From positions 3,455,501-3,519,500 of the forward strand of contig NZ_CP086136.1 in NCBI RefSeq assembly GCF_017565645.3: a DNA stretch of 64,000 nt, in the 5' to 3' direction. This document shows, in pieces, positions 38,258 to 58,943 of the stretch. Under the pieces are notes generated by a model. The model saw only the letters and a program-made list of their open reading frames with translations, was not told the DNA's origin and made no database searches. This stretch comes from Bradyrhizobium barranii subsp. barranii. GTDB lineage: Bacteria; Pseudomonadota; Alphaproteobacteria; Rhizobiales; Xanthobacteraceae. Position 1 is the first letter of the stretch. Every line of letters begins with the position of its first letter. The translations under genes were made by a program, and so were the position numbers.

Positions 38258-39765
38258 CTACGCCACCCGCCACTCCGGCACGCCATCCGCCGCCATCGTG
38301 ATCTCGCCGAGCGAACCCAGCGGCGTGCGATCCATGTTGAGCAGATGCGCCAGCGTCGCCGCGTCGCTCGCCGGAATCCGCGCCAGGGTGCGTCGATCAT
38401 CTTCCGTCCGCAGCATCACCACGCCGTGCTCGACATCGCCGCCGCGGCCATAGAGCACCGTGAAACTCTCGACCTTGCCCTTGCCTGAGACCTCCGTGAC
38501 GAACTCGGGCACCGCGCGCTTGTTGCGGTCGGCCTCGCCTTGCACGCTCGTCTCCTGCGCCAGCGCCTCACGTGGCGTCTTCGACACCACCAATGCGTGG
38601 TGCTTGGTGACGAAGCCGCCCTGGCCGTAGAGCAGCCCGAGCTTGGCGCCATCACGCACACGCCGCACCATCGCGCAGGCCGCATGCGTCATGTAGGTGT
38701 TGAGCGGCGCACCGAAAAAGGTGAGGCCACCGGTCACGGTCGGCTGCACGTCGGCCCCGAGGCCCAGCGTCCGCCGCGCCATCTTGGGCACGCACGGGAA
38801 GCAGCTATAGAGCTCGATCGCGTCGAACTTTTTACCGTCGCCGCCGGCGAGGTCCATCGCCGCCTTCAGCACCGCATTCTGCGGATGGCTTTCATGGAAC
38901 TGATCGCGCAGGAGGTAATCGCGCGGCTCTTCGGCCGAGGCGCCGCCGAGCGGATAGACCAGCTTGTCCTCCGCGATGCCGGCCGCGCGCGCCCTGGCGA
39001 GGCTGGTGAGCAGCAGCGCGCCGCCCATGTTGACGCTGGGGTTGGCGACCATGAGCTTGTTGTAGGGCCAGGCGATCAGCCGGTTGTCCGCCGTCGGCGT
39101 CGTGATCTCGTCCGGCGCATGGCGCCGCTTCAGCCAGGCGTTGGGATTTTCGGCGGCGGCCTCGGAGTAGCGCGACCACAGCGTGCCGGACTCTGCCATG
39201 GCTTCGCGCGGCGTCTGGCCCCAATGGGCGGAGGAGGCGGACTCATAGAATGGATAGACGGTGACGGGACGGAACACGCCGAGCTTCACCGCTAGCGGCT
39301 TCTGGAATGCCGCCCCACGCTTGGGCTCCTCGACGTCATGGGCGAACGGCGTCCAGGGCAGCTTGACCCCGGCGCGCTCCGCCTTGGTCGCGGTCGACTG
39401 CGCCTCCGCGCCGCAGACTGCCGCCACAGTGCATTCGCCACGCGCGATGCGTTTTGCCGCCTCGTGGATGTAGCGGATCGGGCTCTCACCGCCGACCGGG
39501 CCGTAATAGCAATGCGCCGGCGCAATGCCGAGCCGCTGCGCCAAAGCTTTTCCGGATCGCGATAGCGCCAGCTCAGGAAGTTGACGACGTCGAGCGACTG
39601 CACCTCGCCAAGCAGCTTTGCGCCGGCGTCCTGCTCGGCCCGCCGCAGCGCTTGCTCCAGAAGATCGAGAGGCTCGAGGCCCTCGGTGATCTCCTTGGGT
39701 CGGTCGATGATCTCGCCGATGCCGACGACGACGGGGATGCGGTCTTCCGGGATGTTGTCAGTCAT
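38258..39765 (-). pseudogene. Thiolase-like acetyl-CoA acetyltransferase, frame disrupted
   Basis: The N-terminal part reads from 39765 (MTDNIPEDRIPVVVGIGEII ... FLSWRYRDPE). The remainder continues in the -1 frame with ALAQRLGIAPAHCYYGPVGG, the GECTVAAVCGAEA segment, NPSVNMGGALLL and YMTHAACAMVRRVRDGAKLG to 38258. Joining needs one A added to the A-run at about 39548-39551. The joined protein, about 502 residues, is a long bacterial thiolase-like (SCP-x related) protein. The N-terminal nucleophile Cys of biosynthetic thiolases is not obvious; Cys in THAACAM is a candidate. It may cleave a beta-ketoacyl-CoA in this acyl-CoA region. Confidence 0.8.
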
Positions 39766-39888: not shown

Positions 39889-41022
39889 CTACTCCGCCAC
39901 CAGCGCATTCATGTGCTCGACGGCCTCGGCAAATTCTTCCTTGAACTCCTGCACCACGGCGCCCGCCGACTTCACGCTGTCGATCAGGCCGACGCCCTGG
40001 CCGACGAAATAGCTGACGAGGTCGCGCGCCTTGGCGTTGCCGCTCGCCGCCGCGCGATCGATCGCGTTGAAGGCGTCGCGGCTGATGACGCTTTGCAGCG
40101 GCATCGGCAGCGCGCCGGGGCTTTCCGGCGCGCGGTCCCAGGCATCGGTCCAGACCGAGCGGAGCTGGCGTGCCGGCTTGCCGGTGCGCCCCTTTGAACG
40201 GATCGCATCGCGCGAGGACGCCGCGATCATCTTCTCGCGGAAGATCTCCGTGGTCTCGGCCTCGACGGTGGCGAGCCACACCGAGCCGGTCCAGGCGCCG
40301 GCCGCGCCCATCGCCATGCAGGCGGCCATCTGCCGTCCCGTCATGATGCCGCCGGCCGCGAGCACCGGCACGTCGCGGATCTTCTTGATCGCCTTGATCA
40401 CCTCCGGCACCAGCACCAGGGTGGAGACCTCGCCGCAATGGCCGCCGGCCTCGGTGCCCTGCACCACGAGAATGTCGACGCCGGCCGCGACCTGGCGCAA
40501 CGCATGCTCCTTGGCGCCGACGAGGGCGGCAACCGGCACGCCGTGCTTCCTGCCCATCTCGATCATCGCCTTCGGCGGCACGCCCAGCGCGTTGGCGATC
40601 AAACGGATCGGATGGTTGAAGGAGACCTCGAGCAGCTGAAGTGCGGTCTTCGCGTCGAACGGTTGCGGCTGGTTGTCGGCCACATCACTTGTCGTCAACT
40701 CGATATCGTATTTCTTCAGGAGGTCGCGCGTGTAGGCGCGGTGCTCCTGCGGCACGCGCGCCTCCAGGCTCTTCCAGGTGACGTCCTTCTCGCCTGCGGT
40801 CGAGATGTTCTCGGGGATCAGCACGTCGATGCCGTAGGGCTTGCCGTCGACATGCTCGTCAATCCATTTCAGCTCGCGCTCGAGCGTGTCGGGCGTGTGC
40901 ACGGTGGCACCCAACACGCCAAAGCCGCCGGCACGGCTGACGGCGGCAACGACGTCGCGGCAATGGCTGAAGGCGAGCAGCGGGAACTCGATGCCCAGCA
41001 TGTCGCAGATCGGCGATTTCAT
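39889..41022 (-). CDS. Nitronate monooxygenase family flavoprotein
   Basis: A 377-residue FMN enzyme of the 2-nitropropane dioxygenase fold. Motifs: LAFSHCRDVVAAVSRAGGFG near the N-terminus, VVQGTEAGGHCG (phosphate-binding and catalytic region) and VPVLAAGGIMTGRQMAACMA. True nitronate monooxygenases oxidise alkyl nitronates, but relatives act as enoyl reductases or CoA-ester oxidoreductases. In this region, full of acyl-CoA genes, the latter type is plausible. GGGAGAGAG precedes the ATG. It lies downstream of no other minus-strand gene, and a repeat separates it from the thiolase-like gene. Confidence 0.88.
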   Translation of the reverse strand: MKSPICDMLGIEFPLLAFSHCRDVVAAVSRAGGFGVLGATVHTPDTLERELKWIDEHVDGKPYGIDVLIPENISTAGEKDVTWKSLEARVPQEHRAYTRDLLKKYDIELTTSDVADNQPQPFDAKTALQLLEVSFNHPIRLIANALGVPPKAMIEMGRKHGVPVAALVGAKEHALRQVAAGVDILVVQGTEAGGHCGEVSTLVLVPEVIKAIKKIRDVPVLAAGGIMTGRQMAACMAMGAAGAWTGSVWLATVEAETTEIFREKMIAASSRDAIRSKGRTGKPARQLRSVWTDAWDRAPESPGALPMPLQSVISRDAFNAIDRAAASGNAKARDLVSYFVGQGVGLIDSVKSAGAVVQEFKEEFAEAVEHMNALVAE

Positions 41023-41277: not shown

Positions 41278-42897
41278 ATGTCGCCAGCGCAAGTCGTCGG
41301 CGCGGGCTTTGCCGGCATGTACATGTTGCACCGCCTGCGCGGTCTTGGCTTCTCGGCGCGCGTCTATGAGCAGGGTGGTGGCGTCGGAGGCACCTGGTAC
41401 TGGAATCGCTATCCCGGCGCGCGCTGCGATGTCGAGAGCATGCAGTACTCCTACTCGTTTTCGGAAGAGCTGCAGCAGGAGTGGGACTGGAGCGAGCGCT
41501 ACGCGCCGCAGCCGGAGATCCTGAACTACGCCAACCACGTTGCCGACCGTTTTGATCTTCGCCGCGACATCCAGTTCGACACCCGCGTCGAGCGCGCGGC
41601 GTTCGACGCGCGGGCGAAGTGCTGGTCGGTGACGACGTCCGACGGCAAGACGGTTGAGGCGCAGTTCATCGTGCTTGCGACCGGCTGCCTCTCGAACGCG
41701 CGCAAGCCTGACATCAAGGGCCTCGAGAGCTTCAAGGGACCTGTCTACCACACCGGCAACTGGCCGCATGAAGACGTCGACTTCACGGGCTTGCGCGTCG
41801 GCCTGATCGGGACGGGATCGTCTGGCATCCAATCGACGCCCGTCATCGCCGAACAAGCAAAACATCTCACCGTATTTCAGCGCACGGCGAATTTTTCGAT
41901 TCCCGCGCGCAACGCCGCGCTGACCGACGAAGAACGCAGCAACGTCCGCAAGACCTATCCGGAGATCCGCCGCTTCGCCCGCGAAGTCGCACGCAACGGC
42001 ATTTTCGCCGAGCAACCCGATCGCGGCGCGCTCGACGACAGCGACGAGACCAGGAATGGCAAATATTCGGCGCGCTGGGAGCGCGGCGGGCTCACCTTCA
42101 TGTATGTCTACAACAATCTCGGCCTGGAGCGATCCGCGAACGACACCGCGGCGAACTTCGTGCGCGGCAAGATCGCCGAGATCGTGCAGGACCCCGAAAC
42201 CGCGAAGCTGCTCCAGCCCAACAGCCATCCGATCGGCACCAAGCGCATCTGCATCGATACGGATTATTTCGCGACCTTCAACCGGCCGAACGTCTCGCTG
42301 GTCGACATCAAGACCAATCCGATCGAGGAGATCACCGCGAATGCCGTGCGTGTCGCAGGCAAGGACCACGAGGTCGACGCGCTGGTGATGGCGACGGGCT
42401 TCGATGCCATGACCGGCTCGGTCGCGAAGATCGACATCAGTGGCCCGGGCGGACGGACGCTGAACGAAAAGTGGGCGGAAGGCCCGAAGACCTATCTCGG
42501 TCTGATGAGCGCGGGCTTTCCGAACCTCTTCATCATCACCGGCCCCGGCAGCCCGTCGGTGCTCTCGAACATGATCGTCTCGATCGAGCAGCATGTCGAC
42601 TGGATCGCCGATTGCCTCGTCCACATGCGCAGGCAGGGTGTTGCCACCATGGAGGCAAGCGGGGAGGCCGAGGACAAGTGGGTCGCCCATGTCAACGAGG
42701 TCGCCCGCGGCACGCTCTATCCGCAGGCCAATTCCTGGTACATGGGCGCCAACATTCCAGGCAAGCCGCGCATCTTCATGCCCTATATCGGCGGCGTCGG
42801 TGTCTACCGCCGGATCTGCGACGAGGTCGCGGCGAAGGGATATGAGGGGTTTTTGCTGGGGCAGGCCGAGCAGGGGCTGACGGCGGCCGCGTCCTGA
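41278..42897 (+). CDS. Baeyer-Villiger-type flavin monooxygenase
   Basis: A 539-residue FAD/NADPH enzyme. The FAD loop is GAGFAG at residues 8-13, the Baeyer-Villiger fingerprint FKGPVYHTGNWP is perfect, and the second Rossmann loop is GLIGTGSSGIQ. It inserts oxygen next to a ketone to give an ester or lactone. The sequence before GAGFAG is unusually short (MSPAQVV; relatives have a longer strand such as DVVVVGAG), so the start may be wrong or a small deletion may exist. GAGGGAG lies upstream of ATG 41278. Ketone substrate unknown. Confidence 0.88.
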   Translation: MSPAQVVGAGFAGMYMLHRLRGLGFSARVYEQGGGVGGTWYWNRYPGARCDVESMQYSYSFSEELQQEWDWSERYAPQPEILNYANHVADRFDLRRDIQFDTRVERAAFDARAKCWSVTTSDGKTVEAQFIVLATGCLSNARKPDIKGLESFKGPVYHTGNWPHEDVDFTGLRVGLIGTGSSGIQSTPVIAEQAKHLTVFQRTANFSIPARNAALTDEERSNVRKTYPEIRRFAREVARNGIFAEQPDRGALDDSDETRNGKYSARWERGGLTFMYVYNNLGLERSANDTAANFVRGKIAEIVQDPETAKLLQPNSHPIGTKRICIDTDYFATFNRPNVSLVDIKTNPIEEITANAVRVAGKDHEVDALVMATGFDAMTGSVAKIDISGPGGRTLNEKWAEGPKTYLGLMSAGFPNLFIITGPGSPSVLSNMIVSIEQHVDWIADCLVHMRRQGVATMEASGEAEDKWVAHVNEVARGTLYPQANSWYMGANIPGKPRIFMPYIGGVGVYRRICDEVAAKGYEGFLLGQAEQGLTAAAS

Positions 42898-42914
42898 ACC
42901 TGGCTCTTTCCGAT

Positions 42915-42950
42915 CGTCATTCCCGGGCGCGCGGCGGGCCCGGAACGACG
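42915..42950. repeat. Short intergenic palindrome
   Basis: CGTCATTCCCGGGC and GCCCGGAACGACG form a near-perfect hairpin 17 bases after the monooxygenase stop codon. It could act as a terminator-like structure and resembles the arms of the larger element at 54319-54482. Confidence 0.6.
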
Positions 42951-43074
42951 GCGGGAAGCGGCCTGCCATGACGAAACGTAGAGTTGCCCCGCCCGGCAAT
43001 GCATTTCTGCGCCCTTGCCATCGGCCATTCGCGAGCTAATTAATGCAAGCGCATCTTTTCGCCGGAGCCCCCGC

Positions 43075-43956
43075 ATGACCGACGCCCCCGCCTACGTGCC
43101 GCCCAAAGTCTGGACCTGGAACAAGGAGAACGGCGGGCAGTTCGCCAGCATCAACCGCCCCATTGCCGGCGCGACCCACGACAAGGAGCTGCCGGTCGGC
43201 AAGCATCCCTTCCAGCTCTATTCGCTGGCGACGCCGAACGGCGTGAAGGTCACGGTGATGCTGGAGGAACTGCTGGCGCTCGGCCACAAGGGCGCCGAAT
43301 ACGATGCCTGGCTGATCAGGATCGGCAATGGCGACCAGTTCGGCAGCGGCTTTGTCGACATCAACCCGAACTCGAAAATTCCCGCGCTGGTGGACCGGTC
43401 CGGTCCCGAGCCGATCCGGGTGTTCGAATCCGGCTCGATCCTGGTCTACCTCGCCGAGAAGTTCGGCGCCTTCCTGCCGAAGGACATCAAGAGCCGCACC
43501 GAAGCGATGTCCTGGCTGTTCTGGCAGATGGGCAGCGCGCCCTATCTCGGCGGCGGCTTTGGTCACTTCTACGCCTATGCGCCGACCAAGATCGAATACG
43601 CCATCGACCGCTTTGCGATGGAGGTCAAGCGCCAGCTCGACGTGCTCGACCGGCGCCTCGCCGACAACGAGTACCTCGCGGGCAATGAGTACACCATCGC
43701 CGACATCGCGGTGTGGCCCTGGTACGGCGCGCTCGCCAAGGGGCTGGTCTATGGCGCCGGCGAATTCCTGTCGGTGCAGGACTACAAGTACGTGCAGCGC
43801 TGGACCGACCAGATCGCCAAGCGCCCGGCCGTCAAGCGCGGCCGCATGGTCAACCGCGTTTCCGGCGATCCCGCCAGCCAGCTCCACGAGCGGCACGACG
43901 CCGGCGATTTCGACACCAAGACCCAGGACAAGATCGGCGAGCCGGCCGCGACGTAA
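43075..43956 (+). CDS. yghU: Glutathione-dependent disulfide-bond oxidoreductase (YghU-like GST)
   Basis: A 293-residue glutathione transferase-fold protein. YVPPKVWTWNKENGGQFA and NRPIAGATHDKELPVGKHPF are the N-terminal extension typical of YghU. The thioredoxin-like domain has NPNSKIPALVD, and the helical domain has NEYTIADIAVWPW. YghU proteins bind two glutathiones and act on disulfides and organic peroxides. ATG 43075 is followed by MTDAPAYVPPK as in relatives. It follows the monooxygenase gene by 177 bases, including a small hairpin, so it is probably a separate unit. Confidence 0.9.
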   Translation: MTDAPAYVPPKVWTWNKENGGQFASINRPIAGATHDKELPVGKHPFQLYSLATPNGVKVTVMLEELLALGHKGAEYDAWLIRIGNGDQFGSGFVDINPNSKIPALVDRSGPEPIRVFESGSILVYLAEKFGAFLPKDIKSRTEAMSWLFWQMGSAPYLGGGFGHFYAYAPTKIEYAIDRFAMEVKRQLDVLDRRLADNEYLAGNEYTIADIAVWPWYGALAKGLVYGAGEFLSVQDYKYVQRWTDQIAKRPAVKRGRMVNRVSGDPASQLHERHDAGDFDTKTQDKIGEPAAT

Positions 43957-43971
43957 ACGGTGCTCGCTTCA

Positions 43972-44113
43972 CCTCGCCCCGCTTGCGGGGAGAGGTCGAA
44001 TTCGATCGAAGATCGAATTCGGGTGAGAGGGACTCTCCGCGAGCCCAACTCACACTGTTTTCTCGGAAGCAGCCCCTCACCCCAGCCCTCTCCCCGTAAG
44101 AACGGGGCGAGGG
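43972..44113. repeat. Intergenic palindrome with a second palindrome inside
   Basis: Outer arms CCTCGCCCCG (43972-43981) and CGGGGCGAGG (44103-44112). Inside the left half sits a separate palindrome, CGAATTCGATC-GAA-GATCGAATTCG. The flanks GGTGAGAGGG and CCCTCACCCC relate it to the element at 16828-16995, which lacks this insert. Confidence 0.75.
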
Positions 44114-44129
44114 AGCGCGATGGCGCGGC

Positions 44130-44747
44130 CTACTTCCCCTTCGCCCCCTCCGCCGCCGGAAACACCACGCGATCATCCGTGCGGCAGTAGCGGTCGGCGA
44201 ACATCCGGCCGATCGGGTGATAGCGGTCCATGTGCACCCGCATCGCCTTGTCGTCCCACAGCTCGTCGCGGATATGGAAGTGGATGCCTTCGCCCATGAT
44301 CAGCCGGCGATCGTCGTTGACGTCGATCATCTTCCAGAGCTTGCACTCCATCGCCCAGGGCGTGTCGGCGAGCCGCGGCACGGCGATCTTCGCCGACGGT
44401 GCGAGCTTCAGCCCGAGATAGTCAGGCTCGCCCACTTCAGGGGGAAAGTCGCCGCTGCTCTCGTGCATGGCCTTCGCCAGCGGCTCGTCGGCGAGGTTGA
44501 CCACGAACTCGCCGGTGCGCTGGATGTTGAGAAACGTGTCCTTGTCCTGGCCGTTGGGCTTGCGGTTCGCCGCGAACATGCACAGCGGCGGATCTTCGCA
44601 GAAGGCGTTGAAGAAGCTGAACGGCGCGGCGTTGACGACGCCGGTCGGCCCGACCGAGGTCACCCACGCGATCGGCCGTGGCAGGATGAAGGACGTCAGC
44701 ACCTTGTAGCGCTCGCGTGGCGTCAGGTCGCTGGCGGCGTATTCCAT
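44130..44747 (-). CDS. Flavin reductase family protein
   Basis: A 205-residue FMN-binding split-barrel protein. FILPRPIAWVTSVGPTGVVN and NAAPFSFFNAFCEDPPLCMF are the flavin-contact segments of the flavin reductase-like family. It may supply reduced flavin or act as a small flavoenzyme. The start at ATG 44747, with GGAG upstream, was chosen because longer forms would read through a palindromic repeat. It lies downstream of the ACAD10/11-type gene on the same strand, with the repeat between. Confidence 0.85.
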   Translation of the reverse strand: MEYAASDLTPRERYKVLTSFILPRPIAWVTSVGPTGVVNAAPFSFFNAFCEDPPLCMFAANRKPNGQDKDTFLNIQRTGEFVVNLADEPLAKAMHESSGDFPPEVGEPDYLGLKLAPSAKIAVPRLADTPWAMECKLWKMIDVNDDRRLIMGEGIHFHIRDELWDDKAMRVHMDRYHPIGRMFADRYCRTDDRVVFPAAEGAKGK

Positions 44748-44772
44748 GGTGGCTCCGTGGGGGTGAAACTCT

Positions 44773-44867
44773 CGTAGGGTGGGCAAAGCGAAGCGTGCCC
44801 ACCACTTTCTTGCGAAGCCGCGATGGTGGGCACGGCGCGCGAAGAGCGCGCCTTTGCCCACCCTACC
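44773..44867. repeat. Intergenic palindrome (CGTAGGGTGGGCA family), copy 2
   Basis: Same architecture as the 38160 copy; the right inner stem is expanded to GGCGCGCGAAGAGCGCGCC. Lies between two minus-strand genes. Confidence 0.85.
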
Positions 44868-44899
44868 GCTCTTCCCGAGCGGGGAGAGGCCAGAGACTT

Positions 44900-46177
44900 T
44901 TACGCCATGCTCAGCTCGTGGCGTCCCACCACCATCCAGTGCACCTCGTCCGGACCGTCGGCGAAGCGCAGATGGCGGACGTCCTGGTACATCTCGGCGA
45001 GCGGGGTCCAGTGCGAGATACCGGTGGCGCCGTGCATCTGGATCGACTGGTCGATGATCTTGCAGGCGCGCTCCGGCACCATGGCCTTGACCATGGAGAC
45101 CCAGACGCGGGCCTCCTTGTTGCCGAGCACGTCCATGGCCTTGGCGGCCTTCAGCACCATCAGCCGCATCGCCTCGATCTCGCAGCGGGCCTGCGCGATG
45201 ATCTGCATGTTGCCGCCGAGATGGGCGATCTTCTTGCCGAAGGCCTCACGGGTGAGGCCACGCTGCACCATCAGATCCAGCGCCTTCTCGGCCTTGCCGA
45301 TGGTGCGCATGCAGTGATGGATGCGGCCCGGGCCGAGGCGGAGCTGCGAGATCTCGAAGCCGCGGCCTTCGCCGAGCAGCATGTTCTCCTTGGGCACACG
45401 GACGTTGTTGAAGCGCATGTGCATGTGGCCGCGCGGGGCGTGGTCCTGGCCGAACACGTACATGGGCCCGAGCACCTCGACGCCGGGCGTGTCGCGCGGC
45501 ACCAGGATCTGCGACTGCTGCTTGCTCGGCGCCGCATCCGGATTGGTCTTCACCATCACGATGAGGATTTTGCAGCGGGGATCGCCGACGCCGGAGATGT
45601 AATATTTCTCGCCGTTGATGACCCATTCGTCGCCGACGAGCTTTGCGGTCGTCGAAATGTTCTTGGCGTCGGAGGAGGCGACGTTCGGCTCGGTCATGAC
45701 ATAGGCCGAACGGATCTCGCCGTTCATCAGCGGCTTCAGCCACTTCTCCTTCTGCTCCTTGGTGCCGACGCGCTCCAGCACTTCCATGTTGCCGGTGTCC
45801 GGCGCCGAGCAGTTCATCGTCTCGGAGGCCAGCGGGCTCTTGCCGAGCTCGGAGGCGATATAGGCGTAGTCGAGATTCTTCAGGCCCTGACCGGTCTCGT
45901 CGTCGGGCAGGAAGAAATTCCAGAGGCCTTCCTTCTTGGCCTTGTTCTTGGCGACCTCGAGCACCTCGAGCTGTTTCGGCGTAAAGCTCCAGCGATCCTG
46001 CTTGCCTTCGCCGGCCTTGGCGAATTCGATCGACATCGGCTCGACGGTGTCGCGGATGAATTTCCTGACGTGATCGTAGAGCGGCCGGACCTGGTCCGAC
46101 ATGCGGAGATCGTTGAGCTCATCGCCGGGATTGAGAGTGTAGTTGGTGGTGCGGGGTATGTAGGCGTGCTTTGTCAT
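44900..46177 (-). CDS. Acyl-CoA dehydrogenase, ACAD10/11 (LvaC-like) type
   Basis: A 425-residue FAD acyl-CoA dehydrogenase. It carries AYVMTEPNVASSDAKNI (flavin contact) and stretches such as NCSAPDTGNMEVL and LGEGRGFEISQLRLGPGRIH that, from memory, closely match human ACAD11 and bacterial LvaC. In those systems the enzyme acts on a 4-phosphoacyl-CoA made by an APH-type kinase and yields the enoyl-CoA. Such a kinase and its DUF6285 partner are encoded at 48717-50084. GGGAGGAACAATG gives a very good start at 46177. The link is inference from family resemblance and neighbourhood. Confidence 0.9.
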   Translation of the reverse strand: MTKHAYIPRTTNYTLNPGDELNDLRMSDQVRPLYDHVRKFIRDTVEPMSIEFAKAGEGKQDRWSFTPKQLEVLEVAKNKAKKEGLWNFFLPDDETGQGLKNLDYAYIASELGKSPLASETMNCSAPDTGNMEVLERVGTKEQKEKWLKPLMNGEIRSAYVMTEPNVASSDAKNISTTAKLVGDEWVINGEKYYISGVGDPRCKILIVMVKTNPDAAPSKQQSQILVPRDTPGVEVLGPMYVFGQDHAPRGHMHMRFNNVRVPKENMLLGEGRGFEISQLRLGPGRIHHCMRTIGKAEKALDLMVQRGLTREAFGKKIAHLGGNMQIIAQARCEIEAMRLMVLKAAKAMDVLGNKEARVWVSMVKAMVPERACKIIDQSIQMHGATGISHWTPLAEMYQDVRHLRFADGPDEVHWMVVGRHELSMA

Positions 46178-46348
46178 TGTTCCTCCCGGGGTCACTGAGA
46201 TCGCGTTGGGCCGCAGAATAGTCGCAGCGCGGCCAAAGCGCGAGCGCGCATTTTTCAGGCGACCCATGCCATGCGATGGAATATCGCGAGAGCGTTTGAA
46301 ATGCTGTTTGAACGGGGTGAGGAGGCAGGTGCGGGCCGCACTCACTGT
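46178..46348. other. Intergenic stretch, no gene recognised
   Basis: Upstream region of the ACAD10/11-type gene, within a 306-base gene-free gap that also holds the repeat at 46349-46469. No convincing coding frame. Presumably contains the promoter of the dehydrogenase gene, but I see no strong -35/-10 pair. Confidence 0.4.
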
Positions 46349-46469
46349 TGTCATCGCCCGGCTTGACCGGACGATCCAGTACTCCGTGACGTCAGCGATT
46401 TACGGAGAAGCCGCGGCGTACTGGATTCCCCGCTCCAGTGCGCAATTGCGCACAAGGCGGGGAATGACA
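46349..46469. repeat. Intergenic repeat (TGTCATCGCCCG family), copy 2, with inserted palindrome
   Basis: Matches copy 1 at 27755, but the tip of the right hairpin (CCCCGC...GCGGGG) is replaced by a sequence containing the palindrome TGCGCAATTGCGCA. Confidence 0.85.
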
Positions 46470-46483
46470 CCGTCCTGGAGCAA

Positions 46484-46864
46484 TCAGTTCGGCAGCCGAT
46501 GCATCGCGCAGATCTTGTTGCCGTCGAGATCGCGCAAATAAGCGATGTAGAGCTTGTTCCCTGCGCCCTCGCGGATGCCGGGCGGATTCTCGATCGGCGT
46601 TCCGCCGGCGGCGACACCGGCTGCGTGCCACTTGTCGACCTGCTCAGGCGAGTTGGCGGCAAAGCCGATAGTGCCGCCATTCGCACACGTGGCGGCCTCG
46701 CCGTTGATCGGCTTCGTCACCGAGAACACGCCGGTCTTGGTGATGTAGAAGATGCGATGGCCGTCGACCCTGGCCGGGCGCACCTCGAGCGTGCCGAGCA
46801 GGTTGTCGTAAAAAGCCTTGGCCTTGTCGAGATCGTTAGTGCCGATCATGATGTGTGAGAACAT
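46484..46864 (-). CDS. VOC family (glyoxalase-like) protein
   Basis: A 126-residue single-domain vicinal-oxygen-chelate protein: FSHIMIGTNDLDKAKAFYD at the N-terminus, the central half GEAATCANGGTIGFA, and the metal-site end LYIAYLRDLDGNKICAMH. Members include glyoxalases, epimerases and fosfomycin-resistance enzymes; the reaction cannot be told from sequence. It is on the minus strand, after the SDR gene and a palindromic repeat, upstream of the ACAD10/11-type gene. Confidence 0.85.
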   Translation of the reverse strand: MFSHIMIGTNDLDKAKAFYDNLLGTLEVRPARVDGHRIFYITKTGVFSVTKPINGEAATCANGGTIGFAANSPEQVDKWHAAGVAAGGTPIENPPGIREGAGNKLYIAYLRDLDGNKICAMHRLPN

Positions 46865-46885
46865 TTGCCCATTCCCCTCAGAGTT

Positions 46886-46968
46886 TATAGCCCGGATGGA
46901 GCGCAGCGAAATCCGGGTCTTGCTTGCTTCTAGAAATCCCGGATTACGCTTCGCTCCATCCGGGCTAC
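46886..46968. repeat. Intergenic palindrome (TAGCCCGGATGGAGCG family)
   Basis: Perfect 16-base arms at 46888-46903 and 46952-46967, with an inner ATCCGGG/CCCGGAT pair. Only one copy of this family is in the window. It sits between two minus-strand genes. Confidence 0.85.
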
Positions 46969-46973
46969 GAGAT

Positions 46974-47752
46974 TCAAAACGCCGTATAGCCGCCGTCGAT
47001 CACGAACGTATCCGCGGTGTGATACGACGACGCCTTGCTCATCAGATACACCGCGATGCCGCCGAAATCGCTGGCCTCGCCGAAGCGCCGCACCGGAATG
47101 CGCGGCATCACATTGGCCACGAACTTCTCGTTGGCCATGATGCCCGCGGTCATGTCGCTCTTGATCCAGCCGGGCAGGATCGCATTCGCGGTGACGCCGT
47201 GACGCGCCAGCTCGACGCCGAGCGCGCGCACCAGCGCTTGATCGCGGCCTTGGTCGCGGCATAGTGCTCGTTGCGCGCAGTGCCGAAGATCGAGGCGAGG
47301 CTCGATGTCGCGACCAGCCGGCCGAAGGGATCACCGGCATTGGCGCGCTCGGTCATGTGTTTTGCGGCGGCCTGGAACGCGTGGAACACGCCGTCCAGAT
47401 TGGTCGCAAACATCGTGCGCCACTCTTCCTCGGTGCGCTCGATGAAGGAGCGCCGGCCGCCGCCGCCGATGCCGGCATTGGCAAAGCAGCCGTCGACCCG
47501 GCCGAAAATGTCGAGTGTCGCCTTCATCGCGGCATTGACCGAAGCCGGATCGGTGACGTCGCAGACGCGGGTGTCGACCTTGCCGGTAAGGCCCGTCATG
47601 CTCGCGGCAGCAGCCTTGTTCTTGTCAGGATTGCGGCCCCAGATCGAGACGTTGCAGCCCTGGCCGGCCAGTGCCTGCGCGATGCCGAGCCCGATACCGC
47701 CATTGCCGCCGGTGATCACGGCGACGCGGCCGGTAAGGTCGAAAAGGTTCAT
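46974..47752 (-). pseudogene. SDR family oxidoreductase, frame disrupted
   Basis: It starts MNLFDLTGRVAVITGGNGGI (TGxxxGxG motif) at 47752 and runs to the active site NEHYAATKAAI. Homology then shifts by -1 near 47240 and continues ALVRALGVELARHGVTANAI ... VIDGGYTAF to 46974. Restoring one C in ATCAAGCG (ATCCAAGCG) gives the standard YxxxK helix and a 259-residue enzyme. All catalytic residues are intact in the restored form. It is a candidate keto/hydroxyacyl reductase of the hydroxyacyl-CoA set around it. Without repair the product loses its C-terminal third. Confidence 0.85.
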
Positions 47753-47931
47753 GGCGCGTTTCCTGTTTTTGGCACGGGCGCGCGCCAGCCTGTGCGCGCA
47801 AGATTGTGCGATACGACGACAAGGTATGTTCGGACCACCATGGACAAGGCCGCGACAAAAATCAAATATGCGCCCCGGCAAAACTAATTCCGGTCTGCGA
47901 AACATCGCTAGTACCAACTGACGAGGAAACC

Positions 47932-48720
47932 ATGCAGTTCAAACACGTCACGCTCGATTTCGATGGCTCGGTCGCGATCCTCCGGCTCGACCATCAGGAG
48001 GTGATGAACGCGGTCTCCATGGACATGCTGGGCGGCCTCTCCGATGCCCTCGACGCGATCGAGGAGAAGAAGGGCGAGGTCCGCTGCGTGGTGCTGACCG
48101 GCGCGGGGCGGGCGTTCTGCACCGGCGCGAATCTGCAAGGGCGCAACAATCAGTCGAAGAAGACCAAGGCCGGCCTGACGCTCGAGACCGGCTTTCATCC
48201 CTTCTTGCGGCGCATCCGCAATCTGCATTGCCCGATCGTGACCGCGGTCAACGGCCCGGCGGCCGGCGCCGGCATGAGCTTCGCGCTGCTCGGCGACATG
48301 ATTTTGTGCGCGCGGTCCTCTTACTTTCTTCAAGCCTTCCGCCGCATCGGCCTCGTGCCGGATTGCGGCTCGACCTGGCTACTGCCGCGCCTGATCGGCC
48401 GGGCGCGCTCGGTCGAATTGTCGCTGATGGGTGAGCGGCTACCGGCCGAGAAGGCGCTGGAATGGGGCCTCGTCAACCGCGTCTACGACGACGGCGTGCT
48501 GATGGAGGAGGCGATGAAGCTCGCGCGTGATCTCGCCAGCGGCCCGACGGTCGCGCTGTCGCTGATCCGCAAGCTTTACTGGGACAGCCCCGAAAATTCG
48601 TTCGAGGATCAGCTCAATCTCGAATTCCAGTGCCAGCTGCGCGCCGGCGACACGGACGATTTCCGTGAAGGCGTTGGCGCGTTTTTGGAGAAGCGCCCGG
48701 CGCAGTTCAAAGGCAAATGA
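47932..48720 (+). CDS. Enoyl-CoA hydratase/isomerase family protein (PaaG-like signature)
   Basis: A 262-residue crotonase. The oxyanion-hole segments are GRAFCTGANL and GPAAGAGMSFALLGD. Both glutamates used by true enoyl-CoA hydratases are absent: Ser replaces the first (GAGMSF). An aspartate in IGLVPDCGSTWLLPR stands where PaaG-type isomerases have their catalytic Asp, so isomerase activity is more likely than hydration. GAGGAA precedes the ATG. It overlaps the APH-type kinase gene by 4 bases (ATGA), so the three plus-strand genes to 50084 form one operon. Confidence 0.88.
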   Translation: MQFKHVTLDFDGSVAILRLDHQEVMNAVSMDMLGGLSDALDAIEEKKGEVRCVVLTGAGRAFCTGANLQGRNNQSKKTKAGLTLETGFHPFLRRIRNLHCPIVTAVNGPAAGAGMSFALLGDMILCARSSYFLQAFRRIGLVPDCGSTWLLPRLIGRARSVELSLMGERLPAEKALEWGLVNRVYDDGVLMEEAMKLARDLASGPTVALSLIRKLYWDSPENSFEDQLNLEFQCQLRAGDTDDFREGVGAFLEKRPAQFKGK

Positions 48721-49703
48721 TCGAGGCCGAGCTCTCCCGCAGCGTCGCGCGCTGGTGCGAAGGGGCGACCGGCGTCACCGGCGCGGCAAAACTGTCCGGC
48801 GGCGCCAGCCAGGAAACCTGGCGTTTCGACATCGCGCATCCCGATGGGCCGATCGGCGCGATCCTGCGCCGCTCGCCGAAGGGCTATGGCGCCGCGCCGA
48901 CGCGCGCGGCGGGCCTCGCGGCCGAAGCGCAGCTGATGCAACTCGCTTTCGAGGCCGGAGTGCCGTCGCCGCGCGTGATGCATGTGTTGACGCCGGACGA
49001 AAATCTCGGCACCGGCTTCATCATGCAGCGGGTCGAGGGCGAGACCATCGCCCGCAAGATTCTTCGCGATGATGAGTACGCGGCGGCGCGGCCGCGTCTC
49101 GCGCGGCAGATCGGCGGCGTGCTCGCCGGCCTGCACAAACTGCCGCAGGACAAGCTGCCCGAGCTGCGCAGCCGGTCCGCGACCCAGGAGATCTCCGAGT
49201 TCGAGCGCGACTATCGTAGCCTGAACTGGCCAAAGCCCGTGTTCGAGCTGGCGCTGCGCTGGCTGCGCGACCATGATCCCGGCCCCTCGGCCGAGACGAC
49301 GCTGGTGCACGGCGATTTCCGCAACGGCAATCTCATCATCGGCGCCGACGGCGTCCGCGCCGTGCTCGACTGGGAGCTCGCCCATCTCGGCGATCCCATG
49401 GAGGATCTCGGCTGGGTCTGCGTTAACTCCTGGCGTTTTGGTGAGATCGACAAGCCGGTGGGCGGTTTTGGCACACGCGAGGAGTTGTTCGCCGGCTATG
49501 AGGCCGCGGGCCGCAAAGTCGTCCCGTCGCGTGTAAAATTCTGGGAAGTGATGGGCACACTGCGCTGGGGCATCATGTGCGGCGGCATGATGCAGCGGTT
49601 TCGCGAGGGGCCGGATCATTCGATGGAACGCGCCATGATCGGCCGCCGCGCTTCGGAAACCGAAATTGATCTCTTGCGGCTGCTCGCGCCGCGGGGAGGG
49701 TGA
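48717..49703 (+). CDS. APH-fold phosphotransferase (LvaA/ACAD10-11 kinase type)
   Basis: A 328-residue aminoglycoside-phosphotransferase-fold kinase. The catalytic loop is LVHGDFRNGNLII, the metal-binding motif is VLDWELAHLGDPMEDLGWV, and the N-terminal KLSGGASQETWRF is the nucleotide loop of the family. Related kinases fused to ACAD10/ACAD11, or separate as LvaA, phosphorylate the 4-hydroxyl of hydroxyacyl-CoA. Here it is directly followed by a DUF6285 gene (3-base gap), as LvaA is by LvaB, with the matching dehydrogenase at 44900. A resistance role is unlikely. Confidence 0.88.
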   Translation: MIEAELSRSVARWCEGATGVTGAAKLSGGASQETWRFDIAHPDGPIGAILRRSPKGYGAAPTRAAGLAAEAQLMQLAFEAGVPSPRVMHVLTPDENLGTGFIMQRVEGETIARKILRDDEYAAARPRLARQIGGVLAGLHKLPQDKLPELRSRSATQEISEFERDYRSLNWPKPVFELALRWLRDHDPGPSAETTLVHGDFRNGNLIIGADGVRAVLDWELAHLGDPMEDLGWVCVNSWRFGEIDKPVGGFGTREELFAGYEAAGRKVVPSRVKFWEVMGTLRWGIMCGGMMQRFREGPDHSMERAMIGRRASETEIDLLRLLAPRGG

Positions 49704-49706
49704 GAC

Positions 49707-50084
49707 ATGCAGGACGAACCGACCCCGATCGAGCTGACCAAGGCGGTCGCCGATTTCCTCCGCAACGACATCACGCCGCTGGTCTCCGGCCATCAGGCCT
49801 TCAAGCTGCGCGTCGCCATCAACATTCTCGACCTCGTCACGCGGCAGCTGACGCAGGAGGAGGAAAGCGATGCGAAGGAGGTCGAGCGGCTGCGCGCGCT
49901 GCTGGGCATTGACGGCTCGGTCGCCGATCTCAACCGCGCGCTCGCTGAGCGCATCGCCAAGGGTGAGGTTGATCTGGCAACGCCGGGGCTCGCCGAGCAT
50001 CTCTGGCAGACCACGATGGATAAGCTAGCGGTCGACCAGCCGAACTATGCCTCATACAAGCGGGAGCTGGGGCGAGACGGGTAG
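49707..50084 (+). CDS. DUF6285 protein (LvaB-like)
   Basis: A 125-residue helical protein with no catalytic motif that I recognise: ELTKAVADFLRNDITPLVSG, then FKLRVAINILDLVTRQL. It matches the small DUF6285 family that accompanies APH-type kinases; in the Pseudomonas levulinate pathway LvaB is required with LvaA for phosphorylation of 4-hydroxyvaleryl-CoA. GGGTGAG precedes the ATG. A palindromic repeat begins 19 bases after its stop. Confidence 0.8.
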   Translation: MQDEPTPIELTKAVADFLRNDITPLVSGHQAFKLRVAINILDLVTRQLTQEEESDAKEVERLRALLGIDGSVADLNRALAERIAKGEVDLATPGLAEHLWQTTMDKLAVDQPNYASYKRELGRDG

Positions 50085-50271: not shown

Positions 50272-51049
50272 CTACTTCCCCACCCATTTCGGCGGCCGCT
50301 TCTCCGAGAACGCCTTCGGGCCCTCGATGTAATCCTGCGAGGCCACCATCGCCTTCACCGCCGGATATTCGCGCTGCTCCTCGATCGCCTGCTCCAGCGA
50401 CACGGCGAGCCCCTTCTGGATGGTCTGCTTCGACGCCCGGATCGACATCGGTGAGTTCTTGGTGATCATCTCCGCCCAGCGCAGTGCGCCCGACAGCGCC
50501 TCGCCCTGCGGCACCACCTCGTTGACGAAGCCGAGCTCATGGCCCTCCTTGGCGCTGACATGGCGCGGTGAGGATCATGCCCATGGCGCGCTTCAGGCCG
50601 ATCTGGCGCGGCAGGCGATGCAGGCCGCCGGCGAGTGCGGCGAGGCCAACGCGTGGCTCGGGCAGGGCGAAGGTCGCGTTCTCCGACGCGATGATCAGGT
50701 CGCAGGCGAGCGCGATCTCGAAGCCGCCGCCCATGGCGACGCCGTTGACCGCGGCGATGATCGGCTTGTCGCAATCGAATCGCGAGGTGAGGCCGGCAAA
50801 GCCGCCCTTGTCCCAGCCGCGCTTGCCGCCTGCCGCCTGCCACTTCAGATCGTTGCCGGCGCAGAACGCCTTGTCGCCGGCGCCGGTGACAACCGCGACC
50901 CACTGCTCGGGGTCGGCGGAGAAATCGTCGAACACCTTGTTGAGTTCGAAATGCGCATCGATGTGCAGGGCGTTGTAGACCTCGGGCCGCGACAGCGTGA
51001 TGATCGTGATCGGCCCCTTGCGTTCCACCTTTGAGAATTTCAGATCCAT
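50272..51049 (-). pseudogene. Enoyl-CoA hydratase with both catalytic glutamates, frame disrupted
   Basis: It begins MDLKFSKVERKGPITIITLS at 51049 with GGGAG upstream. AGDKAFCAGNDLKW and GVAMGGGFEIALACD (first catalytic Glu) plus TFALPEPRVGLAALAGG (second catalytic Glu) show a classical hydratase. After GMILTA at about 50565 the frame is lost; the rest (HVSAKEGHELGFVNE, then VPQGEALSGALRWAEM to KWVGK) is in another frame. Restoring two bases, for example a second CG at GGCGCGG, would give LTARHVSAKE and a protein of about 260 residues. It is the only crotonase here with the full hydratase pair. Confidence 0.85.
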
Positions 51050-51261
51050 CGCGCGCTCCCGCATTTACTCGTGAAGGAATATTGCGGACATACTAGCGCG
51101 CGTCAGCGCCGCGACACCATCGGATTGCGCGGGCGCGCCTTGCGCCTGTCACACGCCTCGCCTTGCTTGACTTGCGCGCGCACTTCTCACCTTAATCGCG
51201 CGAAGCAAAAGCGCGGTTAGCGCCTTAACGCAAAACGACAAAACTACTCCGGGAGAGAGCC

Positions 51262-52536
51262 GTGGATTTCTCATTGCCTGCCGATCTCGTCGCCTATCTC
51301 GGAGAGCTCGACCGATTCATCGAACGCGAGATCAAGCCGCTCGAACAGGCCGACGACAACATCCGCTTCTTCGACCATCGCCGCGAATGGGCGCGCACCG
51401 ATTTCGACAATGGCGGCCTGCCGCGCCATGAATGGGAAGCGCTGCTGCGCAAGGCCAAGGATCTCGCGGACGCCGCCGGCCATCTGCGCTTTCCGGTGCC
51501 GAAGCAATATGGCGGCAAGGACGGCTCCAACCTCTGGATGGCTGTGATCCGCGAGCATTTTGCCGCCAAGGGTCTCGGCCTGCACAACGATCTCCAGAAC
51601 GAGCACTCCGTCGTCGGCAATTTCCCCGTTGTCACCATGCTCGATCGCTATGGCCGCGACGACCAGAAGGCGATGATCGACGGTTCGATCAAGGGCAAGT
51701 ACCGCATCACCTTTGGCTTGACGGAGCCGCATCACGGCTCGGACGCCACCCACATGGAGACGCGTGCGGTGCCCGCGACCCGCGACAACGTCAAGGGCTG
51801 GATCATCAACGGCGAGAAGATGTGGACGACCGGCATGCATGTCGCCACGCATTGCGCGCTGTTCGCGCGCACGAGCGGCAATGACGGCGATGCCCGCGGC
51901 ATCACCTGCTTCCTGGTGCCGGCCAAGAGCCATGGCGTGAAGGTCGAGGAGTACATGTGGACCTTCAACATGCCCACCGACCATCCCCGCGTCAGCTTTA
52001 CGGACGTGTTCGTGCCTGAGGATGCGCTGTTCGGCGAAGTCGGGCGCGGCCTGTCGCTGGCGCAGTGCTTTGTCCATCAGAACCGCATCCGCCAGGCGGC
52101 AAGCTCGCTCGGCGCTGCCGTCTACTGCATCAACGAGAGTGTCAAATACGCGCGCGAGCGAAAGCCGTTCGGCAAGGCGCTCGCCGAGAATCAGGCGATC
52201 CAGTTCCCGCTGGTCGAGCTCGCGACCCAAGCCGAGATGCTGCGCCTGTTGATCCGCAAGACCGCATGGGAGATGGACCAGCTCAACGAGGAGCAGATCG
52301 AGCGCACGCTCTCCGACCGCGTCTCCATGTGCAACTACTGGGCAAACCGCCTCTGCTGCGAATCCGCCGACCGCGCCATGCAGGTCCACGGCGGCATGGG
52401 CTATTCACGCCACAAGCCGTTCGAGCACATCTACCGCCACCACCGCCGCTATCGCATCACGGAGGGCAGCGAGGAGATCCAGATGCGCAAGGTGGCGGGG
52501 TTCCTGTTCGGGTATATGGGGCCGGGGAAGCATTGA
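51262..52536 (+). CDS. Acyl-CoA dehydrogenase
   Basis: A 424-residue FAD enzyme starting at a GTG with GGGAGAGAG at good spacing. Flavin/substrate motifs are ITFGLTEPHHGSDATHM, WIINGEKMWTTGMHVATH and VHGGMGYSRHKPFEHIYRHH, ending in RITEGSEEIQMRKVAGFLFG. It performs the first oxidation of beta-oxidation. It has the long N-terminal helical part typical of proteobacterial dehydrogenases annotated as caiA-like. Its 212-base upstream region separates it from the divergent crotonase. It is a different subfamily from the 44900 gene. Confidence 0.9.
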   Translation: MDFSLPADLVAYLGELDRFIEREIKPLEQADDNIRFFDHRREWARTDFDNGGLPRHEWEALLRKAKDLADAAGHLRFPVPKQYGGKDGSNLWMAVIREHFAAKGLGLHNDLQNEHSVVGNFPVVTMLDRYGRDDQKAMIDGSIKGKYRITFGLTEPHHGSDATHMETRAVPATRDNVKGWIINGEKMWTTGMHVATHCALFARTSGNDGDARGITCFLVPAKSHGVKVEEYMWTFNMPTDHPRVSFTDVFVPEDALFGEVGRGLSLAQCFVHQNRIRQAASSLGAAVYCINESVKYARERKPFGKALAENQAIQFPLVELATQAEMLRLLIRKTAWEMDQLNEEQIERTLSDRVSMCNYWANRLCCESADRAMQVHGGMGYSRHKPFEHIYRHHRRYRITEGSEEIQMRKVAGFLFGYMGPGKH

Positions 52537-54242: not shown

Positions 54243-54318
54243 GTCTCTCCCGTGGCGTCTTGTTTTTATGCCTGGGAGTGTGGCGTCATCCGCGGGTGAA
54301 GACAAGATGGGAGAGGCC

Positions 54319-54482
54319 CCGCTGTCGTCCCGGACAAGCGCAGCGGAGCGGAGCGCAGATCCGGGACCTATAGCCACAGGGAGGAGTTGTGGCGCGAGAT
54401 CGGGGTTATGAGTCTTCGCCAAACCTCATCCTGGGGTTATGGGTCCCGGGCTCGCGCTATGCGCGCCCCGGGACGACAGCGG
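54319..54482. repeat. Intergenic palindrome (CCGCTGTCGTCCCGG family)
   Basis: Perfect 15-base outer arms at 54319-54333 and 54468-54482, with inner ATCCGGGACC/GGGTCCCGGG pairing. It occupies most of the 248-base gap between the synthetase and SDR genes, both on the minus strand. Confidence 0.85.
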
Positions 54483-58148: not shown

Positions 58149-58943
58149 ATGAGCGACGCTGCCAAGGAAGTGCTGTACGAAGTCGCCGACCACATCGCGG
58201 TGATCACGCTGAATGCGCCGGAGCGCATGAACACGATCTCCGGCCCGATGCTGAACGATCTGGCGCGGCTGCTGACCGAGGCCAATGAGGACCGCAACGT
58301 CCGGGTCGTGATCCTCACCGGCAAGGGGCGAGCATTCTGCGCCGGCCTCGATTTGCGCAAGGAGCGCGACGGCAATGGCCTCAGTGCCGCGTCCTCGCCG
58401 ACCACGATCAATCTGCGCAACACGCCGCCGACCGTGCTTCAGGCTATGGACAAGCCGACCATCTGCGCCGTCAACGGCGGCGCCGCCGGTTACGGCATGG
58501 ACACCGCGCTCGGCTGCGACATCCGCATCATGGCGGAGTCCTCGAAACTCGCCGCCGCCTTCGTCAAGCGCGGCGTCGTGCCGGAATCCGGCGGCACCTG
58601 GCTGCTGCCGCGGATGCTCGGCTGGGCCAAGGCTTCCGAGCTGATCTTCACCGGTCGGACGCTCAGCGCCCGCGAGTGTCTGGACTGGGGCCTCGCCAAC
58701 GAGGTCGTGCCGGATGCCGACCTGATGGGCCGCACCCGCGCCATCGCCCGCGAAATCGCAGCCAACGCGCCGCTCGCGGTGCAGGCCTCCAAGCGCATGA
58801 TGCGGATGGGCCTCAACGAGAACTTCTCCGATCACGTTCACCACGTCTACCTCCAGCTTCTGCCGCTGTTCAAGACACAGGACATGGCCGAGGGCATGAA
58901 GGCGTTCATGGAGAAGCGCGAGCCGAAATTCGAGGGACGGTAG
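58149..58943 (+). CDS. Enoyl-CoA hydratase/isomerase family protein
   Basis: A 264-residue crotonase with GRAFCAGLDLRKE and GGAAGYGMDTALGCD. Asp stands at the first hydratase-glutamate position; the second active-site segment AFVKRGVVPESGGTWLLPR carries Glu where PaaG-type enzymes have Asp. The reaction is therefore uncertain (hydratase, isomerase or dehydratase). ATG 58149 gives MSDAAKEVLYEV. It follows the synthetase and a repeat, on the same strand. Confidence 0.88.
   Translation: MSDAAKEVLYEVADHIAVITLNAPERMNTISGPMLNDLARLLTEANEDRNVRVVILTGKGRAFCAGLDLRKERDGNGLSAASSPTTINLRNTPPTVLQAMDKPTICAVNGGAAGYGMDTALGCDIRIMAESSKLAAAFVKRGVVPESGGTWLLPRMLGWAKASELIFTGRTLSARECLDWGLANEVVPDADLMGRTRAIAREIAANAPLAVQASKRMMRMGLNENFSDHVHHVYLQLLPLFKTQDMAEGMKAFMEKREPKFEGR

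Follow-up and report, generated by a model that had tools for sequence, protein, structure and literature searches.

The window considered here, 64,000 nucleotides of contig NZ_CP086136.1 of Bradyrhizobium barranii subsp. barranii (host genome of 11.4 Mb in four contigs), encodes an APH-fold kinase of LvaA type, a DUF6285 protein, an acyl-CoA dehydrogenase (ACAD1; likely start near 46177, giving ~425 amino acids) and a type I Baeyer-Villiger monooxygenase (BVMO). The open reading frames and Pfam matches place all four genes where an earlier note on this DNA had located them, and confidence in the gene identification is good. Judged by the protein families involved, this is probably a core Bradyrhizobium catabolic locus that would allow beta-oxidation to pass a 4-hydroxyl group, with the BVMO as an accessory feeder.

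On the + strand, the enoyl-CoA hydratase gene at 47932 overlaps the kinase gene by four bases, and the DUF6285 gene follows three bases on; ACAD1, a VOC protein, and the SDR at 46977 are encoded on the opposite (-) strand (Table 1). The BVMO gene (+) is flanked by a nitronate-monooxygenase-like gene and a glutathione-dependent oxidoreductase (GST) gene, and 3' of the kinase-DUF6285 pair are crotonases, a second dehydrogenase (ACAD2), two AMP-binding acyl-CoA synthetases, and an SDR. Intergenic gaps between the named genes (33.8-58.9 kb) are at most 198 bases. The BVMO, SDR, and crotonase surroundings described in the earlier note were recovered; the acyl-CoA synthetases that it included are also present, outside its interval (52662-54422 and 56447-57991).

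Table 1. Genes of the neighborhood, with positions in the window.
Gene product	Position	Strand	Evidence and remarks
Thiolase-like protein (type 1)	38258..39765	-	PF18313 42.5 bits; frame broken near 39.5 kb
Nitronate-monooxygenase/FabK-like flavoprotein	39889..41022	-	PF03060 161 bits
Type I BVMO	41278..42897	+	Pfam FMO-like/Pyr_redox; closest solved relative phenylacetone monooxygenase
YghU-type glutathione-dependent disulfide-bond oxidoreductase (GST)	43015..43956	+	NF008731 537 bits, above cut-off
Flavin reductase-like protein	44130..44861	-	PF01613
ACAD1, ACAD11-type phosphoacyl-CoA dehydratase candidate	44900..46354	-	Pfam Acyl-CoA_dh N/M/1
VOC/glyoxalase-fold protein	46484..46864	-	PF00903
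SDR oxidoreductase	46977..47917	-	Frame broken near 47.25 kb; one longer, unbroken frame in other Bradyrhizobium
Enoyl-CoA hydratase (PRK05981 type)	47932..48720	+	NF004635 483 bits, above cut-off
LvaA-type APH-fold kinase, proposed 4-hydroxyacyl-CoA kinase	48717..49703	+	Pfam APH 128.7 bits
DUF6285 protein (LvaB-type kinase subunit)	49707..50084	+	PF19802 115 bits
Enoyl-CoA hydratase	50275..51064	-	PF00378 148.7 bits (first part); frame broken near 50.55 kb; one longer, unbroken frame in other Bradyrhizobium
ACAD2, ordinary acyl-CoA dehydrogenase	51262..52536	+	Catalytic Glu; HCMR absent
Acyl-CoA synthetase (AMP-binding)	52662..54422	-	PF00501 288 bits
SDR oxidoreductase	54491..55363	-	PF13561 127.5 bits
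Enoyl-CoA hydratase/crotonase	55469..56278	+	PF00378 139.7 bits
Acyl-CoA synthetase (AMP-binding)	56447..57991	+	PF00501 220.9 bits
Enoyl-CoA hydratase/crotonase	58149..58943	+	PF00378 196.4 bits

The thiolase-like, SDR, and crotonase genes have broken frames, all three within 12 kb, and their orthologs in the fetched Bradyrhizobium stretches are longer single frames (~508-546 amino acids for the thiolase-like gene, where the fetched stretch covers it); either a sequencing error in this assembly or recent decay would account for the three breaks.

Kinase and DUF6285 protein

The DUF6285 protein is the sole PF19802 match in the host genome; among its 120 best relatives listed, every one with an organism name comes from Bradyrhizobium. 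The kinase keeps the motifs HGDFRNGN (D200, N205) and LDWE (D218). The system for comparison is the levulinic acid operon lvaABCDEFG of Pseudomonas putida, reportedly described by Rand and colleagues in 2017. Operons of this type were located by their content: PF19802 was found in 24 of 298 genomes of the genus to which G367 belongs (Pseudomonas), and 18 of the 24 places were fetched. The worked case (L258) comprises, in order, genes for a divergent PrpR_N/sigma-54 regulator, kinase, DUF6285 protein, an ACAD with the HCMR motif, SDR, synthetase, DUF485 protein, and SSF symporter, which fits lvaR-lvaABCDEFG as tabulated in an extract of PMC6692424, where LvaF stands beside a DUF485 protein, LvaG is an acetate permease, and the 12 kDa LvaB interacts with LvaA. 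The order kinase, HCMR ACAD, SDR, synthetase recurs in 9 of the 18 neighborhoods, and an HCMR ACAD is found in 17 (none in L263). A protein search from the L257 DUF6285 protein returned Pseudomonas matches, two of the 120 listed being named 4-hydroxypentanoyl-CoA kinase subunit LvaB; both carry PF19802, and LvaB is thus a DUF6285 protein.

In a 51-row kinase tree (49 of the 86 kinases in the set plus two added, the reference being lva-type operon kinases found by content and not LvaA of KT2440), the DUF6285-linked kinases, including those of the window and of the Pseudomonas lva-type operons, were split from the ACAD11/KIN2 kinases with support of 100/100. Together with the PF19802 score of the neighboring protein and the domain content of Pseudomonas LvaB, this bears out the earlier view of adjacent genes of LvaA and LvaB type; of the LvaA/ACAD11 grouping that the note had named as the test for the kinase, the LvaA side holds and the ACAD11 side fails. 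The window kinase is 28-35% identical to 12 Pseudomonas kinase rows and 27% identical to the ACAD11 kinase over 187 columns, and the catalytic Asp and Asn are kept in both groups. Two Arg residues lie at the CoA in the ACAD11 kinase, R176 and R86 (extract of PMC12440821). The R176 equivalent is present in 12/12 rows of the ACAD11 kinase group and 0/39 of the DUF6285 group (Lys in three of six Bradyrhizobium-family rows), a comparison confined to this residue, as R86 could not be mapped (its numbering landed on a Phe). One idea is that DUF6285 might take over part of the acyl-CoA binding. At L104, kinase and DUF6285 are naturally fused. The predicted structure of the DUF6285 protein is all-helical (mean predicted local distance difference test score 89) and had no match in the PDB at E <= 0.001 (25 at E <= 10), and therefore gives no functional hint; no paper in the open-licence PMC literature searched mentions DUF6285 by name.

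Two assignments were discarded. The window kinase is not the ortholog of the ACAD11 kinase, which is encoded at C1:6651339 (252 bits to ACAD11, vs 43 for the window kinase), and the view of LvaA as a KIN2-like kinase was abandoned after the lva-type operons were found.

Elsewhere, a histidine-phosphatase gene lies directly 3' of the kinase-DUF6285 pair on Thermus brockianus pTB1 (L131), and such a gene stands beside the lvaA homolog of Pseudomonas citronellolis, where no lvaB was found (extract of PMC6692424). On the Cupriavidus metallidurans CH34 megaplasmid (2263790-2282122; L128), DUF6285-type and KIN2 (ACAD11-type) kinases are ~2.6 kb apart, in the company of two HCMR-less ACADs and a synthetase. 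In one Bradyrhizobium genome (G053, C1:2583840-2584210; L115), the DUF6285 gene is split across two reading frames.

The acyl-CoA dehydrogenase ACAD1

Of the proteins with solved structures, ACAD11 (387 bits) comes closest to ACAD1, followed by 4hr3 (369 bits), labeled a 'putative acyl-CoA dehydrogenase'; the next, an ordinary ACAD, scores 139 bits. ACAD11 uses R626, R631, H634, R637 (HCMR), and D753 for its phosphate site and catalysis (extract of PMC12440821), and in the alignment ACAD1 keeps the equivalents of all five, including the catalytic D753. By these residues it is of the phosphoacyl-CoA dehydratase type, as the earlier note had proposed, and both ACAD10/11-type segments cited there, including LGEGRGFEISQ, are present in the translation.

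ACAD1 is 49-50% identical to ACAD11 and 29-33% identical to 11 ACADs of Pseudomonas lva-type operons. In a quick tree of 61 hand-picked rows with long outgroup branches, it fell into a 33-row clade with ACAD11 (SH-aLRT 100), apart from the lva-operon and ordinary ACADs; the ACAD1 clade is one branch of this clade, within which the branch order is not settled. Thus, where an LvaC/ACAD11 type had been claimed, the ACAD11 side is upheld and membership of the lva-operon ACAD clade is not. The identification of ACAD1 as LvaC was not borne out by tree and identity, the comparison being with lva-type operon ACADs and not with KT2440 LvaC itself. LvaC is given as 62% identical to ACAD10 and 56% to ACAD11 in an extract of PMC11342911; the 11 Pseudomonas operon ACADs are 31-37% identical (51-56% similar) to ACAD11, at odds with the printed 56%, and another, non-operon Pseudomonas ACAD is 58-59% identical to it. 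For the L257 operon ACAD, the relatives found include proteins of P. putida and P. citronellolis (75-81%), in agreement with the 78% reported for LvaC between these two species (extract of PMC6692424), and none of the 120 listed is named LvaC.

As ACAD1 groups with ACAD11 and not with the lva-operon ACADs, while the kinase lies outside the ACAD11 kinase clade, kinase-DUF6285 and ACAD1 are, on sequence grounds, a mixed set of LvaAB and ACAD11-type proteins; should KT2440 LvaC turn out to be ACAD11-like, the earlier note's wording would stand and 'mixed set' would have to be dropped. The window resembles the lva operon in that an LvaA-clade kinase is directly followed by DUF6285/LvaB, with HCMR-type ACAD, SDR, and acyl-CoA synthetase genes nearby. 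It differs in its ACAD, which is of ACAD11 type and outside the lva-type-operon ACAD clade, in the divergent transcription of its genes, and in its additional genes for crotonases, the ordinary ACAD2, and, in many cases, a BVMO. The lvaA-lvaG order with PrpR-type regulator, DUF485, and SSF symporter genes, as in L258, was not found at 36.9-60.1 kb, where none of the 20 genes scanned with Pfam belongs to the PrpR-type regulator, DUF485, or SSF families. With the mammalian ACAD10/ACAD11 pathway (extracts of PMC12440821, PMC11342911), the window shares an ACAD alike in identity and in the five active-site residues, whereas its kinase belongs to the LvaA/DUF6285 clade, lacks R176, and is unfused to the ACAD; this comparison was made with ACAD11, not ACAD10.

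Of 117 Bradyrhizobium genomes, the host genome counted in, 56 carry an ACAD1 that matches at 97-100% identity across its entire length, which is strong conservation for a catabolic gene; the BVMO is 84-96% identical in the 23 other BVMO-bearing members of that sub-clade. Dehydrogenases of the ACAD11 class that lack the HCMR motif (37-40% identity) occur in L144 (18.8 kb), L145 (19.2 kb), and L194 and L202 (8.6 kb), and two of these formed a separate branch in the tree.

Linkage and distribution of the locus

The same 117 Bradyrhizobium genomes were compared using ortholog cut-offs (ACAD1 at least 85%, BVMO at least 78% identity) chosen after seeing the tables. DUF6285 is present in 111, ACAD1 in 106, and BVMO in 64. 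DUF6285 and ACAD1 occur together in 105 genomes, in 92 of them on the same contig; in 91 of these 92 they are less than 25 kb apart on opposite strands (4.2 Mb apart in the remaining one), and the arrangement is therefore not due to chance.

Among sampled Pseudomonadota, DUF6285 was found in 32 of 299 genomes, and an ACAD11-class ACAD by score (E <= 1e-45, the motif letters not being checked in each) in 32/32 of these vs 86/267 of the others. With cut-offs again set after seeing the tables (ACAD1 clade at least 70%, BVMO at least 54% identity), the ACAD1 clade is present in 18 genomes of this phylum sample, 16 of them with DUF6285 (7/8 by genus), and the BVMO in 17, of which 15 have DUF6285. 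The best 80 loci of a contig scan for the ACAD1 clade include Caulobacter, Reyranella, Sphingopyxis, Sphingomonas, gammaproteobacterial, and acidobacterial records. For the first 50 of the 77 non-Bradyrhizobium loci (among which G733 seems identical to G254 of the phylum sample, with the same contig coordinates), DUF6285 is encoded somewhere in 44/50 genomes and a BVMO of at least 54% in 31/50, 29 of those 31 with DUF6285. Outside Bradyrhizobium, linkage of DUF6285 and ACAD1 is rare and their co-occurrence strong (DUF6285 in 44/50 genomes of the ACAD1 clade vs 32/299 in the phylum sample), in counts that ignore phylogeny and degradative life-style; Fisher p-values for the co-occurrences likewise disregard phylogeny.

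Several observations weigh against a core locus in which this kinase and ACAD1 act together with a BVMO as feeder. Within 10 kb, a distance before which several contigs end, a DUF6285-type kinase was found at 3 of the best 80 ACAD1-clade loci, all Bradyrhizobium, and a KIN2 (ACAD11-type) kinase at 8. Thirteen further alphaproteobacterial loci carry a kinase of the window type (L090-L100, L104, L130); ACAD2 is beside or near the kinase in four of them and ACAD1 in none, and in the remaining nine the stretch showed no ACAD resembling those used as queries. DUF6285 occurs without ACAD1 in six Bradyrhizobium genomes, and the BVMO ortholog is missing from 53 of the 117. The host genome encodes three more HCMR ACADs, including those at C1:4501657 and C1:3557397; the third adjoins its own ACAD11-type kinase (C1:6651339-6653498, L110; kinase 252 bits to the ACAD11 kinase), which makes a second complete ACAD11-style pair, and the function may therefore be shared. 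Finally, the reading frames of three locus genes are interrupted in this assembly, and neither an ester or lactone hydrolase family nor an alpha/beta hydrolase was found among the 20 genes scanned with Pfam at 36.9-60.1 kb (an RND gene at 33780 is outside the scan).

The kinase-DUF6285 pair could have ACAD2, its older neighbor, as its partner in some other chemistry, in which case ACAD1 would be a separate enzyme that is nearby by chance in Bradyrhizobium. At the four loci with ACAD2 (71-90% identity), kinase, DUF6285, and ACAD2 genes are contiguous in G281 (79%) and on a Sulfitobacter pontiacus plasmid (71%), and near each other in G324 (74%) and G346 (90%). The last, a genome of the same family (genus g3, L091), has BVMO, kinase, DUF6285, and ACAD2 at the locus and no ACAD1 there, and no ACAD1-clade gene was found in its genome; Bradyrhizobium genomes G053, G065, G083, and G098 likewise lack ACAD1 and have the kinase, DUF6285 (split in G053), and ACAD2. 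However, ACAD2 has Phe, Gln, and Ser at three phosphate-contact positions and Glu as base, and DUF6285 genomes carry an ACAD11-class ACAD by score without exception (32/32), as 44 of the 50 ACAD1-clade genomes carry DUF6285; we consider ACAD2 a very unlikely partner. In other genomes, the kinase-DUF6285 pair adjoins an HCMR ACAD (34-39% identity), namely in Thermus brockianus pTB1, three gammaproteobacterial genomes of one genus, G161, G132, and G124; none was seen beside it in L108, L109, L128, and L129. Given that ACAD2 stands beside kinase-DUF6285 in other lineages, the Bradyrhizobium locus may be an old cluster of kinase, DUF6285, ACAD2, and crotonase genes, with ACAD1 and, optionally, the BVMO as further members.

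The Baeyer-Villiger monooxygenase and the proposed pathway

Between two Rossmann motifs (GAGFAG and GTGSSG), the BVMO carries FKGPVYHTGNWP, a match to the type I BVMO fingerprint FxGxxxHxxxW[PD]. Among solved structures, it comes closest to phenylacetone monooxygenase (662 bits) and steroid monooxygenase (637 bits), a likeness that would favor open-chain ketones; fingerprint and matches place it with this group of type I BVMOs, from which it differs in the position of its gene beside a kinase-dehydratase module.

The earlier note regarded the BVMO as the dedicated entry enzyme of a single pathway leading from a ketone through an ester or lactone, a hydroxyacyl-CoA, and a phosphorylated intermediate to an enoyl-CoA, and had named an unlinked BVMO gene in related genomes as evidence to the contrary. 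Within the genus, DUF6285 and BVMO occur together in 61 genomes (on different contigs in 11), and in 50/50 with both on one contig they are less than 22 kb apart on the same strand; inside the genus, the linkage thus does not refute the note's reading. The BVMO is also present at the G346 locus, and in G322, which belongs to a different family of the class, ~70 bases separate the matching segments of BVMO (61%) and ACAD1 (74%) on one strand; next to them are genes for a GST, a family III CoA transferase, and an alpha/beta hydrolase, the sole case with a hydrolase. Co-occurrence of the BVMO with DUF6285 (15/17 in the phylum sample, 29/31 among ACAD1-carrying genomes) points in the same direction, but the 54% cut-off was chosen after seeing the data, and the association is confounded because degradative genomes carry many BVMOs. 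Moreover, the 53 genomes without a BVMO ortholog mostly keep DUF6285 (50) and ACAD1 (48), three genomes have the BVMO without either, the hydrolase family was not found among the window genes scanned, and phosphorylation of ACAD10 type is specific to the 4-hydroxyl (extract of PMC11342911). A dedicated entry enzyme is rather unlikely; of the earlier interpretation, the kinase-dehydratase half holds with its clades corrected, and the Baeyer-Villiger half may hold.

At the other extreme, the BVMO might be an unrelated neighbor (e.g., for detoxifying ketones) whose position reflects the general synteny of Bradyrhizobium, the pathway consisting of kinase, DUF6285, and ACADs only. The BVMO does not track the other genes: DUF6285 and ACAD1 are present in 61 and 58 of the 64 genomes with it, and in 50 and 48 of the 53 without. 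Few other proximities were found outside Bradyrhizobium and G346: Sphingomonas sp. Leaf412 (57%, 13 kb from the kinase/DUF6285 pair), L203 (57%, ~7.5 kb), and L195 (45%); a BVMO of at least 57% lies within 10 kb at 3 of the best 80 ACAD1-clade loci (two Bradyrhizobium and L203). By hand estimate, the chance per genome is ~0.1% for an adjacency like that in G322 and ~1% for 13 kb as in Leaf412, and over ~40-50 genomes only G322 is therefore notable, the rest being near chance. Mere synteny is at odds with linkage that persists in both sub-clades despite a spacing of 4.7 to 21.7 kb, and with the G346 and G322 cases. Of 15 Bradyrhizobium neighborhoods fetched, four are from genomes without a BVMO ortholog; in two of these (L123, L124), ACAD1 and the nitronate-monooxygenase-like gene are missing as well, which again speaks against an unrelated neighbor, whereas L119 and L121 keep both, along with the other genes. 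We regard an unrelated BVMO as a serious possibility, somewhat short of probable. At the Bradyrhizobium locus, the BVMO is linked but optional.

In the 4-hydroxyacyl-CoA pathway that we favor, an acyl-CoA synthetase would form the CoA ester, the LvaA-type kinase with its DUF6285 (LvaB-type) subunit would, by family, phosphorylate the 4-hydroxyl of the acyl-CoA, and ACAD1, by its residues, would eliminate the phosphate to give a 2-enoyl-CoA, which crotonases, SDRs, ACAD2, and the thiolase-like protein would take through ordinary rounds of beta-oxidation; the BVMO would serve as an accessory feeder in about half of the genomes. The kinase-dehydratase part of this proposal is well supported by sequence comparison, and feeding by Baeyer-Villiger oxidation is plausible. 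Baeyer-Villiger oxidation converts a six-ring ketone to a 6-hydroxy acid, and a 5-oxo acid that terminates in a methyl ketone directly to a 4-hydroxy acid. If the BVMO feeds the pathway, the most likely entry, from the chemistry, would be an n-oxo acid yielding an (n-1)-hydroxy acid, or a six-ring ketone yielding a 6-hydroxyacyl-CoA, which would need one round of beta-oxidation to become a 4-hydroxyacyl-CoA. Phosphorylation of the 4-hydroxyl by LvaAB (extracts of PMC6692424, PMC9399607) and phosphate removal by ACAD10/11 (extracts of PMC12440821, PMC11342911) are reported chemistry, and ACAD10-dependent phosphorylation was reported in cells with 4-hydroxyhexanoate, not 5- or 6-hydroxyhexanoate (extract of PMC11342911). 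With such specificity, ring ketones, cyclobutanones apart, would not lead straight to the substrate, and chain shortening or a 5-oxo acid would be needed. It is rather unlikely that the LvaA/DUF6285 kinase and ACAD11-type dehydratase, usually unlinked but brought together at one locus in Bradyrhizobium, form a two-part module for removing 4-hydroxyls that arise, after chain shortening, from Baeyer-Villiger ketone cleavage.

Among the titles and abstract starts returned by searches of the open-licence PMC literature, none joins Baeyer-Villiger oxidation to a kinase-dehydratase route, and the combination, which the earlier note had held to be undescribed, is described there in parts and not as a whole; a paper on Fmo5 mice (PMC10237457) contains both BVMO and ACAD11. 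If true, a route from ketone to beta-oxidation would be one known in parts, not as a whole, in the literature searched. The tie between DUF6285, one kinase clade, and ACAD11-class ACADs across the sampled Pseudomonadota offers a sequence rule for spotting 4-hydroxyacyl-CoA catabolism, and the presence of an LvaA-type kinase with an ACAD11-type dehydratase suggests that kinase and dehydratase halves recombine between lineages. The locus provides a case for the origin of 4-hydroxyacyl-CoAs in soil and symbiotic bacteria.

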